Assembly: GCF_021184025.1 (NCBI RefSeq)
Contig: NZ_CP036537.1
Coordinates: 2,046,001-2,110,000 of the forward strand
Reading direction: 5' to 3'
Origin: Rhodopseudomonas boonkerdii
GTDB lineage: Bacteria > Pseudomonadota > Alphaproteobacteria > Rhizobiales > Xanthobacteraceae
Length of the DNA: 64,000 nt
The notes beneath the pieces are model-generated. The model saw only the letters and a program-made list of their open reading frames with translations. It was not told the DNA's origin and ran no database searches. Positions 49,460 through 55,965 of the stretch are shown here, in pieces. Made by a program: the position numbers and the translations under genes. Every line of letters begins with the position of its first letter. Position 1 is the stretch's first letter.

Positions 49460-50350
49460 TTATCCATCCTGCTTACCTCGTCGCGTCGCTAGCGCCCTTT
49501 CCAACAATCCGATCAAACAGGTCCCCAAATCTTCCGCCGTCTTGATTGTCGTGGAAGCGGTATAACAGCGAGCTACGTCAAAACCGATGCCGAGGGCAAA
49601 GAGCTCGATCTCCCCTTTGGCTTCGATATCGGCGATCACCTCGCGCAAATGCGCAATCAGGATATCCGGCTCATTTGCGAGCAGCGTCGAGTCATCTACC
49701 GGCGCTCCGTCGGAGATCACGACGATGATCTTGCGCTTCTCTGGACGAGCGAGCAGGCGCTCCGACGCCCATAGCAACGCTTCGCCGTCGATATTCTCTT
49801 TCGGCAGATCAGGCCGCAACATCTGTCGGATGCTCCACCCGAGACTAGATGCGTATTCATTATCGGCAGATCGATAGATGATGTGTAGTAATTCGCATAG
49901 TCTCCCCGGATCCTTCGGTCGGAGGCACCATTTCCAGAACTGCCTTGGGTGCCCACCTTTCCACGAGACTGTCGTGAAGCCGAGTATTTCGACCCGGTAA
50001 CCGAGATGAGCCAGAAAATCCTGCGCGATGTCGGTCGTCGCGGCGGCCAGCAACATCGATTGCCCGCGCATAGAGCCAGACTGATCCACGAGGAGGGCGA
50101 TCACCGTGTCGGCGCGATCATCGTCGGTGGTCACGCGTCTTAATCGCTCGGATGCTGCGAGCGCATCGAGGTGGACCCGCATCTTCCAGTCCATCAGGCC
50201 TGTTTCGAAAATGTCCCAGGCTTTCTCCAGGGTTGCTTTCGTCTCCGCGGAAAGCGGCCCCAGCACGCTGTCGAGTTGATCTGCTATGACGACGCGATCG
50301 AACGCGCGCGTGTAAATACGGTAGCCCCGGTGTGTTGCTGACGCAGCCAT
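49460..50350 (-). CDS. Stand-alone CobT-like VWA domain protein
   Basis: 296 residues corresponding to the C-terminal half of aerobic cobaltochelatase subunit CobT (normally ~600 residues). N-terminal YRIYTRAFDRVVIADQL, the MIDAS motif in LLVDQSGSMRG (D-x-S-x-S), VEILGFTTVSWKGG, IIYRSADNEYA, ENIDGEALLWASERLL and ISDGAPVDDSTLLANE are all CobT-like. No CobN/CobS or other cobalamin gene is nearby. The gene is locally poorer in GC (parts near 50%), suggesting transfer. Start ATG 50350 with AGGGGG six nucleotides upstream. It may work with a MoxR/CobS-type ATPase elsewhere; role unknown. Confidence 0.85.
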   Translation of the reverse strand: MAASATHRGYRIYTRAFDRVVIADQLDSVLGPLSAETKATLEKAWDIFETGLMDWKMRVHLDALAASERLRRVTTDDDRADTVIALLVDQSGSMRGQSMLLAAATTDIAQDFLAHLGYRVEILGFTTVSWKGGHPRQFWKWCLRPKDPGRLCELLHIIYRSADNEYASSLGWSIRQMLRPDLPKENIDGEALLWASERLLARPEKRKIIVVISDGAPVDDSTLLANEPDILIAHLREVIADIEAKGEIELFALGIGFDVARCYTASTTIKTAEDLGTCLIGLLERALATRRGKQDG

Positions 50351-50372: not shown

Positions 50373-50398
50373 TTTTACATCCTAAAGTTGTTTTACAT
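50373..50398. promoter_or_regulatory. Tandem TTTTACAT sites upstream of the VWA gene
   Basis: TTTTACAT occurs at 50373-50380 and again at 50391-50398 (18 nt apart, just under two helical turns), reading ATGTAAAA on the VWA-coding strand. The downstream copy contains TAAAAT, a fair -10 hexamer. It could be a paired operator or promoter element; no matching -35 is convincing. Confidence 0.35.
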
Positions 50399-50415
50399 TA
50401 GTTCATGATTTGTTC

Positions 50416-50445
50416 TTGACAAGGTGCTTCTTTCAGGAATATCCT
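50416..50445 (+). promoter_or_regulatory. Promoter-like sequence ahead of the structured-RNA candidate
   Basis: TTGACA (50416-50421), 18-nt spacer, TATCCT (50440-50445). Transcription would begin near 50452, immediately at the first hairpin of the following gene-free region. It points away from the VWA gene. Confidence 0.5.
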
Positions 50446-50451
50446 CCCTCC

Positions 50452-50890
50452 GTCTCGTTCGCGAGGGGGCGCTTCATGAGGCGTCTTGGAGCGGAACGTG
50501 GATGTGGCGCCTGCGGGTGAAGGGGGACGTACCCTTCACACTCGGGAGGCCTTGGGTCACCGTCCGGGCCCACTACGGCGCTCTGCCACTCAGTGGCTGG
50601 ACGGGTGCGGATGACGGCTGGCGAAAGCCGGTCCGATGGCAGGGCACCTGCCAGCTTCCAGTACCCGGAAGCACGGTCCCTCGGTCCGAAATCGCCACGG
50701 TGGTGCGCCGTCAGGCGTTGCGCGGCTCAGGTTTGCTGGCGATCCAGCGGGCAGGAGCAGCGTCAGAAACCACCCTCGCGCCTTGCGGCGCACCGCCTCC
50801 CCTCATGCTTCGAGGGGAGACCTGCTCACACCTCGGACGCCCCAGGGCGCCGCGAGATCGCCGAACTGTGTCTCCTGGATACCACCCCCG
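50452..50890 (+). ncRNA. Candidate large structured non-coding RNA
   Basis: About 440 nt with no credible protein frame but many consecutive stable hairpins. The best ones: CTCG-TTCG-CGAG at 50454; AGGCGTC / GGCGCCT (50479-50485 with 50506-50512); GTGAAGGG / CCCTTCAC (50517-50539); CCGTCC / GGACGG (50560-50565 with 50599-50604) enclosing GCCAC-TCA-GTGGC; a 7-bp stem with GAAA tetraloop (50616-50633); TGGCAGG / CCTGCCA (50637-50653); GCTTCC / GGAAGC (50654-50672); GCTGG-CGAT-CCAGC (50735-50748); GCGCC-TTGC-GGCGC (50778-50791); CTCCCCTC / GAGGGGAG (50797-50819); CTCGG ... GAG around CGCCC-CA-GGGCG (50832-50856). The GNRA loop favours the plus strand, as does the upstream promoter. Motifs of RNase P, tmRNA and SRP RNA were not found. 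The 3' end is uncertain; no T-rich terminator is seen. Possibly related to HEARO/omega-type RNAs, unverified. Confidence 0.5.
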
Positions 50891-50920
50891 GTAAATCCCT
50901 TGATGCAACGCACCAATTCA

Positions 50921-50951
50921 TTGACAGGAGCTGAGGTGAGCGCTTACTCAC
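50921..50951 (+). promoter_or_regulatory. Promoter and TetR-type operator of the RND efflux operon
   Basis: TTGACA at 50921-50926 lies 16-18 nt before weak -10 candidates inside GTGAG-CGCTTA-CTCAC (50936-50951), an inverted repeat resembling the TGAG...CTCA operators of AcrR/TetR efflux regulators. The operator ends 6 nt before the TetR start codon, so repression of its own operon is expected, and the transcript would have little or no leader. Confidence 0.6.
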
Positions 50952-50957
50952 GCCGCT

Positions 50958-51665
50958 ATGACAACTCTCCGAATGACTCACGATCTGCGGCGCGAACTGA
51001 TCCTTTCGGCTGCGAAGCGCTGCTTTGCGCACAATGGATTTGCCGGCACCACGACCAAGAGCGTGGCGGCGGCGGCATCGATTTCGGAGGGACTGCTGTT
51101 CAAGCATTTTCCCACCAAGTCGGCACTCTATGCCGAGATTCTGGCGGAGGAGTGCAAGGCCGATCCGGCCCTCAACCGGCTGCTCGATCTGCCGGCTTCC
51201 ACCGAGACGCTGGTGATCATGATCCGCGAGATGGTGCGGCACTTCCTCGACATCGCCCGCGAGCCGGACGACGAGGAGGCGCAGCGTCTGCGTCTCGTCA
51301 CGATCAGCTATCTGAACGATGGCGAATTCGCCCGCCTGATGCACGAGAAGATCGCCGACATCATCGGTTCGGCCTTCGTTGCCGCCTACGAACGGGCGGT
51401 GAAGTCGGGCGATGCGCGGGCGTCATCGCAGGCGCCGATGAATCTCTTCTGGTTCGCGCATCATGCGGCGATGACGACGTCGCTGTCACTGATGCCGGCG
51501 GTGCCTTCTCTTTCTTACGACAAGTCGGAAAGCCTCGATCTGCAACTGACGGAATTCATCCTTCGCGGAATTGGACTGAACGACGATGCGATCGCATCGC
51601 ATATTCGTCGCGCACTGCCGCCCGAGCTGATGCCGGCAGCCGCGACCACGACAGAAAGCGCATAA
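50958..51665 (+). CDS. TetR/AcrR family regulator of the adjacent efflux operon
   Basis: 235 residues. HTH domain: LILSAAKRCFAHNGFAGTTT, KSVAAAASISEGLLFKHFPTKSALYAEIL, followed by an all-helical ligand domain. It is the first gene of tetR - adaptor - RND pump, with 1 nt between its stop and the adaptor ATG. A palindrome directly upstream is the probable autoregulatory operator. ATG 50958 lacks a ribosome binding site; ATG 50973 is an alternative. Confidence 0.9.
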   Translation: MTTLRMTHDLRRELILSAAKRCFAHNGFAGTTTKSVAAAASISEGLLFKHFPTKSALYAEILAEECKADPALNRLLDLPASTETLVIMIREMVRHFLDIAREPDDEEAQRLRLVTISYLNDGEFARLMHEKIADIIGSAFVAAYERAVKSGDARASSQAPMNLFWFAHHAAMTTSLSLMPAVPSLSYDKSESLDLQLTEFILRGIGLNDDAIASHIRRALPPELMPAAATTTESA

Positions 51666-51666
51666 G

Positions 51667-52860
51667 ATGACTATGACCCAGAACCCTCCTACGGCGCACC
51701 AGCAGCCGTCCGTCGAAACGCCACGCAAGCGTCCGCGCACGGTGCGCTGGTTCATCATCGTCGGCGGCCTGCTGGCGCTGCTTGTCGTCGCCATCGTCGG
51801 CTTCAATGCCTTCCGCTCGCATATGATCAAGCAGTTCTTCGCCAATATGAAGCCGCCGCCGATCACTGTGAGCATCGCCGAAGCGAAGTCCGAGGTGGTG
51901 CCGAACCTGATCGGCGCCGTTGGCGATCTGGCCGCCGTGCATCAGGTCAATGTCACCTCCGACGTCAATGGCCGTGTCACCGAGATCATGTTCCAGGCCG
52001 GCGCCACCGTGAAGAAGGGACAGCCGCTGGTGCAGCTGTTTGACGGACCGGAGCAGGGCGACCTCGCCAACTTCAAGGCCGCGGCTTCCGTGGCGCGCAT
52101 CAATCTGGACCGCGCCAAGCAGCTTGCCGAGCGTCAGGTCGGCCCGCAGGCGACGGTCGATACCACGCAGGCGGCGTATGACCAGGCGCTCGCCAACATT
52201 GCCAAGACTGAAGCGGTGATCTCGCAGAAGCTGGTCCGTGCGGCTTTCGATGGCGTGCTCGGTACCCGCCGTATCGAAGTCGGTCAGTATCTCACGGCCG
52301 GCACGCAGATCGTGTCGCTCACCGATCTGTCGGCGGTCTATGCCAACTTCACCGTGACCGAAAAGGATAGCGGCAAGCTCGCGGTCGGCCAGGTCGTGCG
52401 CATTACGGTCGACGCCTATCCGGGCCGCACCTTCGAGGGCAAGCTGACCACCATCGAGCCGCAGATCTCGGCCGATACGCGCAACATCCGCGTGCAGGCC
52501 ACGATCCAGAATCCGGAAGGCATCCTGAAGCCCGGCATGTTCGCGACCACGACTGTGGTGCTGCCGGACAAGCCCGCCGTCGTGACGGTGCCGGAAACCG
52601 CGGTCGACTACACGCTCTATGGCGACAGCGTCTATGTCATCCAGGAGAAGAAGACCGACGACGGCAAGACCGAGCTGCACGCGATCAGAACCTTCGTGCG
52701 CACCGGCGATCGCATCGATGGCCGTGCAGTCATCACCCAGGGCGTCAAGGCCGGTGATCGCGTCGTTGCGGTCGGCCAGCTCAAGCTGCAATCGGGTGCG
52801 CTGGTCGCAATCTCGTCTGACCCGCCGCCGAAGATCCCGGCACAGCCGCCGCTGAACTGA
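51667..52860 (+). CDS. RND efflux periplasmic adaptor (membrane fusion protein)
   Basis: 397 residues. A cytoplasmic N-terminus, one membrane segment (WFIIVGGLLALLVVAIVGF), then lipoyl and hairpin domains (VTSDVNGRVTEIMFQAGATV, GQPLVQLFDGPEQGDLANFKAA) and beta-barrel (GTRRIEVGQYLTAGTQIVSLTDLS). It links the inner-membrane pump to an outer-membrane channel; no TolC-like gene follows, so a channel encoded elsewhere must be used. 15 nt to the pump gene. Confidence 0.92.
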   Translation: MTMTQNPPTAHQQPSVETPRKRPRTVRWFIIVGGLLALLVVAIVGFNAFRSHMIKQFFANMKPPPITVSIAEAKSEVVPNLIGAVGDLAAVHQVNVTSDVNGRVTEIMFQAGATVKKGQPLVQLFDGPEQGDLANFKAAASVARINLDRAKQLAERQVGPQATVDTTQAAYDQALANIAKTEAVISQKLVRAAFDGVLGTRRIEVGQYLTAGTQIVSLTDLSAVYANFTVTEKDSGKLAVGQVVRITVDAYPGRTFEGKLTTIEPQISADTRNIRVQATIQNPEGILKPGMFATTTVVLPDKPAVVTVPETAVDYTLYGDSVYVIQEKKTDDGKTELHAIRTFVRTGDRIDGRAVITQGVKAGDRVVAVGQLKLQSGALVAISSDPPPKIPAQPPLN

Positions 52861-52875
52861 CCGGAGCACACACGC

Positions 52876-55800
52876 ATGTCCTTCACGGATATCTTCATCA
52901 AACGCCCCGTGCTGGCGGTGGTGGTCAGCCTGCTGATCCTGCTGATCGGCTTCAAGGCGGCCACCAGCCTGCCGATCCGGCAGTATCCGAAGCTCACCAA
53001 CACCGTGATCACCGTCACCACTGTGTATCCCGGGGCGTCTCCGGATCTGATGCAGGGCTTCATCACCACGCCGATCGAGCAAGCCGTCGCGGCTGCCGAA
53101 GGCATCGACTACATGACCTCTGCCTCGACCCAGGGGCAAAGCCTGATCTCGGTCTACATCAAGCTGAATGTGGACCCGAACGCGGCGCTCACCGAAGTGC
53201 TGTCGAAGGTGAATTCGGTCAAATATCTGATCCCGCGTGAAGCCAATGACCCGGTGATCCTGAAGTCTACCGGCGAAACCACCGCGATCATGTATCTCGG
53301 TTTCTCCAGTGACGAGCTGTCCGGTTCGGCGATCTCGGACTATCTGACACGCGCCGTACAGCCGGTGCTGTCGACTGTCGATGGCGTGGCCAATGCTGAA
53401 ATCCTCGGCGGCCAGACCTTCGCAATGCGCCTGTGGCTCGATCCCGTGCGCATGAACGGTCGCGGCGTGTCGGCGGACGACGTGGTCAATGCCATCCGCT
53501 CCAACAACTTCCAGGCAGCGGCGGGTCAGACCAAGGGCTACTACATCATCTCCAACGTCGCCGCGAACACCGACCTGCAGAATGTCGGCGAGTTCAAGCG
53601 GATGATCATCAAGGCGAAGGATGGCGGCTTCGTTCGCATGGAGGATATCGCCACCGTCGAACTTGCCGCGCAAAGCTCCGATGCCAGCGTGGCGTTCAGC
53701 GGTGAGCGCGCGATCTTCATCGGCGTGAAATCGACCCCACTCGGCAACCCGCTCAACATCGTCAAGGGCGTGCGCGACCTGTTCCCGGAACTCGAGCGCA
53801 ACCTGCCGCCATCGATGAAGATGAAGGTGGCCTACGACTCCACCAAGTTCATCACCTCGTCCATCGAGGAGGTGCGCAATACGCTGATCGAAGCGGTGGT
53901 GATCGTGGTCGTGGTCATCTTCCTGTTCCTGGCGTCGCTGCGTTCGGTCATCATTCCGGTGGTGACCATCCCGCTGTCGCTGATCGGTGTCTGCAGTCTC
54001 ATGTTGATGGCCGGGTTCAGCTTCAACCTGCTGACGCTGCTGGCGATGGTGCTCGCCATCGGCCTCGTGGTGGACGACGCCATCGTGGTGGTGGAGAACA
54101 TTCATCGCCATCTGGAGGAGGGCAAGTCGCCGGTGCAGGCGTCGCTGGAAGGCGCGCGCGAAATCATCGGCCCGGTCATCTCCATGACCATTACGCTGGC
54201 GGCGGTCTATGCGCCGATCGGCTTCATCGGCGGTCTCACCGGCGCGCTGTTCCGCGAATTCGCTTTCACGCTGGCGGGCTCCGTGATCGTGTCGGGCGTC
54301 ATCGCGCTGACGCTGTCGCCGATGATGTGCTCGGTGCTGCTCAAGCAGGAGGAGCCGGGCTGGTTCGCCAAGAAGGTCGACAAGGTATTCGGCGCCACCA
54401 CGCGCTGGTATGGCCGGCAGCTCGATCGTTCGCTCGACTATCGCCCGATCACCGCCCTGTTCGCGGTGGTCATCCTCGGTCTCGTCGGCTTCATGTATAT
54501 GAATACGTCCAAGGAGCTGGCGCCCGAGGAAGATCAGGGCATTCTGTTCGCCATCACCAAGGGGCCGAAATACGCCAACATCGACTACTCCGACTATTAC
54601 GGAGACAAGATGGACAAGGTGTTCGCTCAGTTCCCGGAAACGGATCTGCGCTTCATCATCAACGGCATCAACGGCCCGAATAACGGCATTGCCGGCATGC
54701 TCTTGAAGCCATGGGATGAACGCAAGCGCTCGACCAATCAGCTCAAGCAGCCGGTGCAGAACGAGCTCAGCAAGATCGAGGGCGTTCAGGCTTTCGCCTT
54801 CAACCTGCCGGCGCTGCCGGGGGGGCCGGGCGGCCTGCCGATCCAGATGGTGATCAGCACCGTCGGCAGCTTCCAGTCGGTCTATGAGGAGATGGTGAAG
54901 CTGAAGGCTGAAGCACAGAAGAGCGGTCTGTTCATCGTCTCGGACAGCGACCTCGACTTCAACCAGCCGGTGGTGCGCGTCAGTGTCGACCGGTCGAAGG
55001 CGAACGATCTCGGCGTCACCATGCAGAGCGTCGGCAATACGCTGGCTGTGATGCTCGGCGGCAACTATATCAACCGCTTCAACCTCGAAGGCCGCTCCTA
55101 TCAGGTGATTCCGCAGGTGCCGCGCGGCATGCGCATCTCGCAGGATTCACTCGCCAACTACTATGTGCCGACCGCAACGGGCCAGCAGGTTCCGCTGTCG
55201 ACGCTGGTGAAGGTGGAAACCGGCACCAATCCGAACGCGCTGTCGCATTTCAACCAGCTGAACTCGGCGACCTTCCAGGCCGTGCCGATGCCGGGTGTGA
55301 CCGTCGGACAGGCGGTGGACTTCCTCGAACAGGCCGCGAAGAAACTGCCGGCCGGCTTCAACCACGACTATCTCGCTGACTCGCGCCAGTATGTGCAGGA
55401 AGGCAACCAGCTCGCGGTGGCGTTCGGCTTTGCGCTGATCATCATCTTCCTGGTGCTGGCGGCGCAGTTCGAGTCGATCCGCGATCCCTTGGTCATCATG
55501 ATCTCGGTGCCGATGGCCATTTCGGGTGCGTTGATCCCGCTGTTCTTCGGCGTGGCGACGATCAACATCTACACCCAGGTGGGTCTGCTCACGCTGGTCG
55601 GCCTGATCTCGAAGCACGGCATCCTGATGGTGGAGTTCGCCAACGAGCTGCAGCTGAAGGAAGGTCTCGATCGTCGCTCGGCCATCGAAATGGCCGCCCG
55701 CGTTCGTCTGCGTCCGATCCTGATGACGACGGCGGCGATGGTCACCGGCTTGTTGCCGCTGCTCACCGCATCGGGCGCCGGCGCCGCGAGCCGCTTCTCC

Positions 55801-55965
55801 ATCGGCCTCGTGGTGGTCGCCGGCATGCTGATCGGCACGCTGTTCACGCTGTTCGTGCTGCCCGCGGTCTATGTGGCCATCGCCACCGACCACCGCGCCG
55901 GCAAGGAGAGCGAGCGCGCCAGGGAAATCGCCGACTTCGATATGAAGCACGCGAAGACGACGTAA
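52876..55965 (+). CDS. RND multidrug efflux transporter (AcrB/MexB/MexF-like)
   Basis: 1029 residues, full length for HAE1-family pumps. Begins SFTDIFIKRPVLAVVVSLLI; TM4 proton-relay aspartates in IGLVVDDAIVVVENIHRHLE; TM10-11 region with GLISKHGILMVEFANEL and R-L-R-P-I-L-M-T. Two large periplasmic loops follow TM1 and TM7, as expected. It is driven by the proton gradient and expels drugs or lipophilic compounds. A terminator follows 52 nt after the stop, ending the tetR-adaptor-pump operon. Confidence 0.95.
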   Translation: MSFTDIFIKRPVLAVVVSLLILLIGFKAATSLPIRQYPKLTNTVITVTTVYPGASPDLMQGFITTPIEQAVAAAEGIDYMTSASTQGQSLISVYIKLNVDPNAALTEVLSKVNSVKYLIPREANDPVILKSTGETTAIMYLGFSSDELSGSAISDYLTRAVQPVLSTVDGVANAEILGGQTFAMRLWLDPVRMNGRGVSADDVVNAIRSNNFQAAAGQTKGYYIISNVAANTDLQNVGEFKRMIIKAKDGGFVRMEDIATVELAAQSSDASVAFSGERAIFIGVKSTPLGNPLNIVKGVRDLFPELERNLPPSMKMKVAYDSTKFITSSIEEVRNTLIEAVVIVVVVIFLFLASLRSVIIPVVTIPLSLIGVCSLMLMAGFSFNLLTLLAMVLAIGLVVDDAIVVVENIHRHLEEGKSPVQASLEGAREIIGPVISMTITLAAVYAPIGFIGGLTGALFREFAFTLAGSVIVSGVIALTLSPMMCSVLLKQEEPGWFAKKVDKVFGATTRWYGRQLDRSLDYRPITALFAVVILGLVGFMYMNTSKELAPEEDQGILFAITKGPKYANIDYSDYYGDKMDKVFAQFPETDLRFIINGINGPNNGIAGMLLKPWDERKRSTNQLKQPVQNELSKIEGVQAFAFNLPALPGGPGGLPIQMVISTVGSFQSVYEEMVKLKAEAQKSGLFIVSDSDLDFNQPVVRVSVDRSKANDLGVTMQSVGNTLAVMLGGNYINRFNLEGRSYQVIPQVPRGMRISQDSLANYYVPTATGQQVPLSTLVKVETGTNPNALSHFNQLNSATFQAVPMPGVTVGQAVDFLEQAAKKLPAGFNHDYLADSRQYVQEGNQLAVAFGFALIIIFLVLAAQFESIRDPLVIMISVPMAISGALIPLFFGVATINIYTQVGLLTLVGLISKHGILMVEFANELQLKEGLDRRSAIEMAARVRLRPILMTTAAMVTGLLPLLTASGAGAASRFSIGLVVVAGMLIGTLFTLFVLPAVYVAIATDHRAGKESERAREIADFDMKHAKTT

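Follow-up and report, generated by a model that had tools for sequence, protein, structure and literature searches.

A predicted family of large structured RNAs, present in many copies per genome in Tardiphaga and relatives

Main finding

The window, that is the whole stretch of 64,000 nucleotides analysed here, carries at 50445-50857 (+ strand) one member of a dispersed, putative RNA gene family of its own 5.63-Mb genome, which is that of a soil bacterium. We refer to the window copy as L001 and to its own genome as G000. Judged from the sequences, the family comprises RNAs of approximately 410-470 nt in Tardiphaga and relatives, with many copies per genome, many of them at shared loci. We are highly confident that these are a promoter-bearing family of folded noncoding RNA sequences, and we think it probable that the RNAs are functional and act in trans, whatever their exact role. 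An earlier note had proposed a conserved, multi-domain structured RNA at this position. This is borne out: homologues were found with compensatory changes (covariation, three comparisons), and in the full-length alignment the changes go beyond phylogeny, as looked for in a functional structured RNA gene.

Copy number and distribution

With 50400-50957 as query, BLAST matched the own genome in 21 pieces. The core was modelled from 50 copies over 138 positions, and this covariance model (R1) gave 16 loci. Ten of these, the window copy among them, score above 110 bits (type A). The other six score 61-68 bits and have a different middle (type B); five of the six were aligned and are nearly identical to each other. 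Copies are sharply delimited at common borders, on the 5' side immediately ahead of the promoter and on the 3' side at the hairpin CTCGG..CGCGAG. In the window, copy comparison places the borders of the unit sharply, with the promoter from approximately 50401 and the body up to approximately 50857.

DNA matches were found by BLAST in 38 of 101 genomes, own included. The core model matched all 18 genus genomes, the own one among them, with 1 to at least 16 matches per genome and one genome matching weakly. A pattern scan of named genomes gave at least 120 stretches. Among the 80 matches listed are Tardiphaga, Afipia, Rhodopseudomonas, Pseudolabrys and one Bradyrhizobium-labelled strain, and also MAGs labelled as various Hyphomicrobiales/Rhizobiales. 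An order-wide survey with the core model and strict filters matched 4 of 249 genomes. One of the four is the own genome, and two are weak matches from other families; the same survey gave no match in nine other listed genomes of the own family. RNAs with this core (class I) seem largely confined to part of one family.

Promoter of the unit

The promoter region of the window copy (50401..50445, + strand) lies inside the repeated unit. As the earlier note gave it, TTGACA (-35, 50416-50421) is followed by an 18-nt spacer and the -10-like TATCCT (50440-50445). Transcription of the window copy would start at approximately 50450. The class I RNA body, approximately 413 nt (50445..50857, + strand), is delimited by copy boundaries, fold z score and covariation.

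Comparison of the copies supports a promoter belonging to the unit itself. Of 75 distinct copies, 55 keep the exact TTGACA at the predicted -35, whereas six shifted control windows have it in 0-1 of 74-75 copies. A hexamer with one mismatch occurs in 10 copies (1-10 in the control windows); in another 10, mostly from other genera, the search at this position found none with up to one mismatch. In the own genome 14 of the 15 copies looked at have TTGACA and the remaining one has TTGACG. Among copies having the hexamer, the majority bases of the spacer after it are AATATTCCTAT. Eight other near-full copies of the own genome (84-89% identity) align from query position 1-2 (five copies) or from 46 (three copies).

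In copies L039 and L042 a perfect palindrome, TCCTATAGGA, lies between the -35 and the -10; it is absent from the window copy and is a possible operator. No regulon sharing the promoter emerged when six genomes were scanned for TTGACANNNTTCCTATANGANNATA with up to one mismatch; 6 sites lie in 4 of the genomes. Four of the sites are known RNA copies by coordinates (G022, two in G016, G012) and the other two are in G357.

Fold and covariation

On the + strand, 50440-50900 folds with -238.9 kcal/mol as compared to -212.3 +/- 6.6 kcal/mol for shuffled sequences (z -4.07, 0 of 100 as good). The z score of the - strand is -1.32, with 11 of 100 shuffles as good.

A full-length MAFFT alignment held 79 sequences, two of which were dropped at 95% identity, leaving 77 copies. 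For covariation, APC-corrected G-test scores were compared with alignments simulated along a FastTree tree, with substitutions moved to random columns. Under this phylogeny-aware null, 14 of 72 pairs of a consensus structure derived from the same alignment covary at structure-set E<=0.05, and control structures slid by 1-3 columns gave 0, 0, 1, 1, 0 and 0 significant pairs. Without a structure prior, six of all column pairs pass, four of them in the structure. The other two, columns 78-86 and 162-218 (94% and 91% standard pairs), fall beside P3 and within the P7 columns of the fuller fold, respectively. A larger fold of 130 pairs has 13 significant pairs (0-2 when slid), none of them in P1. 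In the R1 core alignment, 16 of 27 core pairs have both sides changed in some sequences.

The cells in consensus pairs comprise 4511 Watson-Crick, 777 G.U, 39 A.C and 188 other combinations, and the ratio of G.U to A.C is thus approximately 20:1. Since G.U is far above A.C on one strand, the folded molecule would be the + strand RNA. A double- or single-stranded DNA structure is unlikely, because it would not give so strong a bias on one strand.

The consensus fold is multi-branched and includes long-range helices (50504-50509/50693-50698 and 50548-50563/50673-50686); it replaces the row of independent consecutive hairpins described by the earlier note. All helices are on the + strand. In brief, P1 (50452-50462 with 50491-50503) surrounds the hairpin 50465-50474/50479-50487; 89-92% of its cells are paired and no pair is individually significant. 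P2 (50504-50509 with 50693-50698) closes the central domain, with 96% of cells paired and none individually significant. P3 (50510-50523 with 50533-50546) holds the GTGAAGGG/CCCTTCAC stem and is 95% paired, with three covarying pairs. The core domain (50548..50686), as given by the R1 model and the consensus fold, contains P4 (50548-50563 with 50673-50686), P5 (50566-50571/50578-50583), P6 (50585-50589/50593-50597), P7 (50602-50611/50658-50667) and the GAAA-capped P8 (50616-50623/50628-50633).

The 3' domain (50699..50797) is formed by the 20-bp P9 (50699-50718 with 50778-50797), which is 96% paired with three covarying pairs. Inside it lie P10 (50721-50728/50755-50762) and P11 (50733-50739/50744-50750), 84-86% paired with none significant. 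P12 (50799..50817) is the hairpin CCCCTC..GAGGGG, the second 8-bp stem of the earlier note; it is 85% paired, again with none significant. P13 (50832..50856), the hairpin CTCGGACGC..GCGCCGCGAG of the 3' module, is common to the class II RNAs described below. Over 27 such modules it is 94.5% paired, with 4 of 9 pairs changed on both sides, and slid controls are lower.

The shorter elements read from the sequence earlier were located as claimed. These are the stems GTGAAGGG (50517)/CCCTTCAC (50532) and CTCCCCTC (50797)/GAGGGGAG (50812), the GAAA-capped stem (GGC-GAAA-GCC at 50620) and the TTCG loop (50809). CCGTCC (50560) and GGACGG (50599), proposed to form a long-range pairing, are also both present as sequence, but the main comparative pairing differs and joins CACCGU with ACGGUC further 3'. 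In alternative fold models, the last two C pair with GG at 50599 or with GGA of CCCGGAAG.

Comparison with Rfam

Covariance models of Rfam 15 found 0 families at gathering score in the window, and tRNA and tmRNA were rejected with 0 in the window. A permissive search of 14 loci with related copies gave seven sub-threshold matches, one overlapping a copy and the rest outside. The overlapping match, to BASRCI408 (Brucella sRNA CI408), has 23.3 bits (gathering score 398) and E 0.041; it falls on the 3' end of L040, which seems to be followed by another repeat. Searched alone, 50380-50960 gave three matches with E 8-10 at best. The Rfam search that the earlier note had called for hence gave no acceptable match, so the RNA is undescribed by Rfam 15 and the family is new by that measure. 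The Rfam library includes models of HEARO, the group II intron and other ribozymes; these candidates were rejected, none of the models matching. OLE, GOLLD and ROOL, which have Rfam profiles according to the excerpt of PMC12286853, were likewise rejected on no match in the window, the 14 loci or 50380-50960. We recognised no description of the RNA family in the available parts of open-licence papers, a scope that most subscription papers fall outside.

The window copy and its neighbours

The window copy is atypical in that it is without the 3' tail of other copies and has the less standard -10 TATCCT. It forms 90% of the consensus pairs, which places it among the six lowest of 79 sequences. 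Its nearest own-genome paralogue among the copies compared is 91.4% identical; for several other own copies the figure is 98-100%, and for L109 only 78.4%. The window copy may be an old copy leaving the homogenised pool.

The neighbours were assigned by Pfam. Upstream, a CobT-type VWA protein (CobT_C, E 6.9e-56) is encoded at 49460..50350 on the - strand. Downstream on the + strand follow a TetR-family regulator (50958..51665), an HlyD efflux gene (51667-52860) and an AcrB-type efflux gene (52876-55965). The upstream region of this TetR operon (50858..50957, + strand) lies outside the unit in the window copy, and only its proximal part is common to sites without the RNA. It has no recognisable counterpart of the GGCTGTTTGACA tail (the tail regex was negative for L001).

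Locus context and alternative explanations

Many copies stand at syntenic loci and are nevertheless homogenised within genomes, as rRNA genes are. We compared, among the retrieved copies, 35 locus pairs from different genomes with both flanks shared. In 30 of the 35, a copy resembles a paralogue within its genome more than its syntenic orthologue, and in 29 the flanks have a higher identity than the element; these figures are unchanged without one locus retrieved twice. Some type B copies of the own genome stand at sites where a relative has a type A-like copy (L119 vs L053, L121 vs L060).

The main rival explanation is a host-tolerated, non-autonomous mobile RNA element, copied by a transposase or reverse transcriptase encoded elsewhere, with a fold that serves its own spread. 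We consider this rather unlikely. It would suit the dispersed copies, the near-identical type B subfamily and the shared repeats that form the flanks of several copies. It would also suit sites filled in some genomes only. Where the tetR locus is present (15 genomes of the genus), R1 or a model of the 3' module (R2) finds the RNA upstream in 9 and not in the other 6; at the ruvC site, for which 59 of 61 genomes gave DNA matches, it is found in 6 of the 25 genomes scanned there. Presence and absence between genomes at one site, as with insertion sequences and MITEs, is seen at both. In the excerpt available to us, PMC11109978 takes multi-copy motifs, especially those of inconsistent orientation, as candidates for mobile or repeat elements.

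Other observations weigh against mobility. The 28 genes nearest to 14 own-genome loci (ORF heuristic) include no transposase or integrase above the Pfam cut-off, the one sub-cut-off match (21.0 vs 21.3 bits) lying inside RuvA, and Pfam finds no transposase or integrase among the neighbours of the window copy. The 40-nt ends of 15 own-genome copies share no exact inverted match longer than 6 nt, and these copies have no consistent target duplication (exact matches, with ends set by eye). The exact pattern had 0 matches in viral contigs, and BLAST gave none to plasmids. Loci are also kept between genera, an example being L098 and L100, which have both flanks in common. A MITE or insertion sequence was rejected as identity for want of terminal inverted repeats, target duplication and a transposase in cis, and a plasmid or viral origin on the viral-contig and plasmid results.

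Of the 28 flanking genes, 25 have Pfam domains and 3 have none; the types include relA/spoT type, SHMT, aconitase, PPDK, ruvA, HamA and others. The HamA-domain protein (L118:5413-6396, own genome), which presumably belongs to Hachiman-type defence, adjoins an RNA copy. At L110, L119, L120, L121 and elsewhere in the own genome, the 5' flanks are repeats themselves, e.g. ending CTACCCATCCTACGG, and the intergenic regions are mosaic.

An intergenic repeat of REP/BIME type would act at the DNA level, in chromosome structure or recombination, and have no RNA function. The copies are indeed intergenic and mark rearrangement breakpoints. In the own genome yebC lies upstream of copy L120 and ruvC downstream of copy L117; in G001, with no copy there, yebC is directly before ruvC. 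By this comparison the copies are recombination points. A purely DNA-level repeat is nonetheless very improbable given the promoter hexamer in most copies, the 20:1 ratio of G.U to A.C and the marked fold z score on the + strand only. The earlier note had named a mere intergenic repeat as a finding that would count against it; the sequence is repeated, yet RNA pairing is kept, the + strand bias is strong and many loci are syntenic.

The RNA could also regulate the gene downstream in cis, as a leader or attenuator. In the window this would concern the TetR-efflux operon, which the copy precedes in the same direction; the RNA is found upstream of tetR in 9 of 15 genus genomes. We regard a cis role as highly improbable, because the gene orientations at 102 loci do not suit it: RNA and downstream gene share a strand in 43 and lie on opposite strands in 58. 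Relative to the RNA, upstream and downstream genes at these loci are (+,-) in 36, (+,+) in 25, (-,-) in 20 and (-,+) in 16, with five unresolved, as assigned by an ORF heuristic. Copies are commoner between convergent than divergent genes (36 vs 16, p 0.008, a value that includes orthologous loci and one locus counted twice). Moreover, the proximal TTGAC-containing region of tetR is kept in genomes without the RNA.

The earlier note saw no plausible protein frame. There is in fact a 156-codon ORF (50424-50894) spanning the region, but since it has no Pfam match and gaps between L001 and the copies mostly shift the frame (lengths modulo 3: 1, 893; 2, 248; 0, 139; 80 comparisons, some loci twice), it is not a protein gene. 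The same two observations speak against a decayed gene, which the note had allowed for. Many copies have long open stretches, with a median of 126 of approximately 137 codons in the forward and 112 in the reverse direction (81 entries, which include some loci twice). A coding or decayed gene can nevertheless practically be dismissed, as frame-shifting gaps dominate and pairing constraint accounts for the conservation. With 156 codons open in the window copy, genome annotations may list copies as hypothetical proteins.

The 3' tail and class II RNAs

Many class I copies, and the class II RNAs, end in GGCUGUUUGACA, which is identical to the presumed boxA of the own rRNA leader. The genome has a single 16S gene that we found, with GGGCTGTTTGACAAGTTGAG 280 nt upstream, and the GGCTGTTTGACA of this leader, 280 nt before 16S, is identical to the tail. 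From its position and the boxA consensus, we infer that the leader motif GGCTGTTTGACA is the rRNA boxA. GGCTGTTTGACATNNNNATC, with up to one mismatch, has 12 sites in the own genome and the reversed pattern 0; by coordinates eight are at class I 3' ends, and four are at class II 3' ends. The tail follows 46 of 79 distinct regex matches of the 3' module and was not found in 33, some of which are chance matches in coding DNA. A boxA-like tail identical to the own rRNA-leader motif is accordingly found in the family and not in the window copy.

In L075 (G012) the tail motif is present three times in tandem after the terminal hairpin (GGCTGTTTGAAA, GGCTGTTTGAAA, GGCTGTCTGAAA). A class II-like RNA, L444 (G216, of the large-genome genus g25), has the tail GCTCTTTGAAAA, which we take to be closer to the enterobacterial boxA.

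Class II RNAs have the same terminal hairpin as class I, a 5' end that is related by eye, and a different middle. Four such loci of the own genome, L268, L272, L273 and L274 (at 3746868, 1801798, 3898787 and 3933641, respectively), encode a predicted long structured RNA sharing the 3' module; L272 and L273 are identical over 520 nt. In the class II fold, based on 21 sequences, double changes affect 10 of 53 pairs and there are 111 G.U against 11 A.C cells, counted without a phylogenetic null; support for it is weaker than for class I. The 3'-module model R2 was built from 27 sequences. It matches 18 own-genome loci at E 0.05, the window copy weakly (E 0.001), and within the family it has matches in 42 of 99 genomes, counting the own one. 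The class I core is present, in two cases weakly, at 41 of 67 loci matched by R2; ten of the 67 had been picked as class II or unclassified. Classes I and II form a superfamily with shared ends.

Proposed function

We favour a trans-acting RNP, perhaps tied to Nus factors. The unit would be a gene transcribed from a sigma70-type promoter, and its product would act in trans as RNA or RNP, with dose being important. The Nus link is put forward tentatively. More speculatively, the 3' tail of tail-bearing copies may be bound by NusB and ribosomal protein S10 (NusE), so that the RNA would draw on the machinery of Nus factors and rRNA transcription; it might be a decoy or dosage sensor of rRNA synthesis. 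High-level transcription of NutL-containing RNA titrates Nus factors and lowers rRNA expression, as reported in the excerpt of PMC4807359. A second precedent is the hypothesis that OLE RNA sequesters RpsU, a ribosomal protein (PMC12286853). Against the Nus reading count the absence of the tail from the window copy, the 33 of 79 3' modules in which it was not found, and its place at the 3' end of the RNA, not upstream as in rRNA.

A bolder proposal is an rRNA-coupled RNA machine: a superfamily with interchangeable bodies, common ends and copies homogenised like those of rRNA, whose boxA tail would capture NusB/S10 and in this way link rRNA transcription or ribosome assembly with some other state of the cell. 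We think this unlikely in so specific a form. In more general terms, an unrecognised RNA machine in this bacterial group is probable, because there are at least 16 copies, no catalogued family matched and relatives carry the RNA too.

Few bacterial noncoding RNAs of such size and complexity are known, and for several the function is not settled. The present family is found in culturable, named genera; its copies are numerous and often carry the presumed boxA sequence, which gives a concrete hypothesis of Nus binding. It also suggests that RNA genes other than those of rRNA evolve in concert and mark chromosomal rearrangements.

Comparison with known systems

The rRNA operon leader, with its boxB-boxA layout, resembles the RNA family in having a hairpin followed by GGCUGUUUGACA and homogenised copies. 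Unlike in the leader, the tail is at the 3' end of the unit, with only a short conserved stretch seen beyond it, and the RNA body matches no rRNA family in Rfam. Noncoding RNAs known from the same lineage include BjrC1505 and other sRNAs of Bradyrhizobium and Rhodopseudomonas. The intergenic repeats Br-REP1 and Br-REP2 of Bradyrhizobium, from the same bacterial family, are palindromes of 20-40 nt according to the part of PMC5082802 available, unlike the large RNAs described here. Identity with them was rejected, their consensus cores being absent from the whole window at up to three mismatches.

HEARO, the omega RNA of IsrB, is likewise a large structured RNA and is multi-copy in some genomes. 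The RNA family differs from HEARO in that the 28 neighbours have no IscB/IsrB-type Pfam match and the promoter lies within the repeated unit. One HEARO example is 343 nt long in the excerpt of PMC12286853.

The family resembles OLE, GOLLD and ROOL, which are also large, elaborate and noncoding, with a poorly understood function. As far as the excerpted sources go, GOLLD also has a conserved 3' region and a less conserved 5' region, OLE RNA is hypothesised to sequester the ribosomal protein RpsU, and ROOL and GOLLD are RNAs of phages and prophages, often near tRNAs (the latter two points from PMC12286853). Unlike these three, the RNA family has many chromosomal copies per genome, each with its own promoter and homogenised between loci. 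Copy number, concerted evolution, interchangeable bodies and the boxA-like tail set it apart from other large bacterial RNAs.
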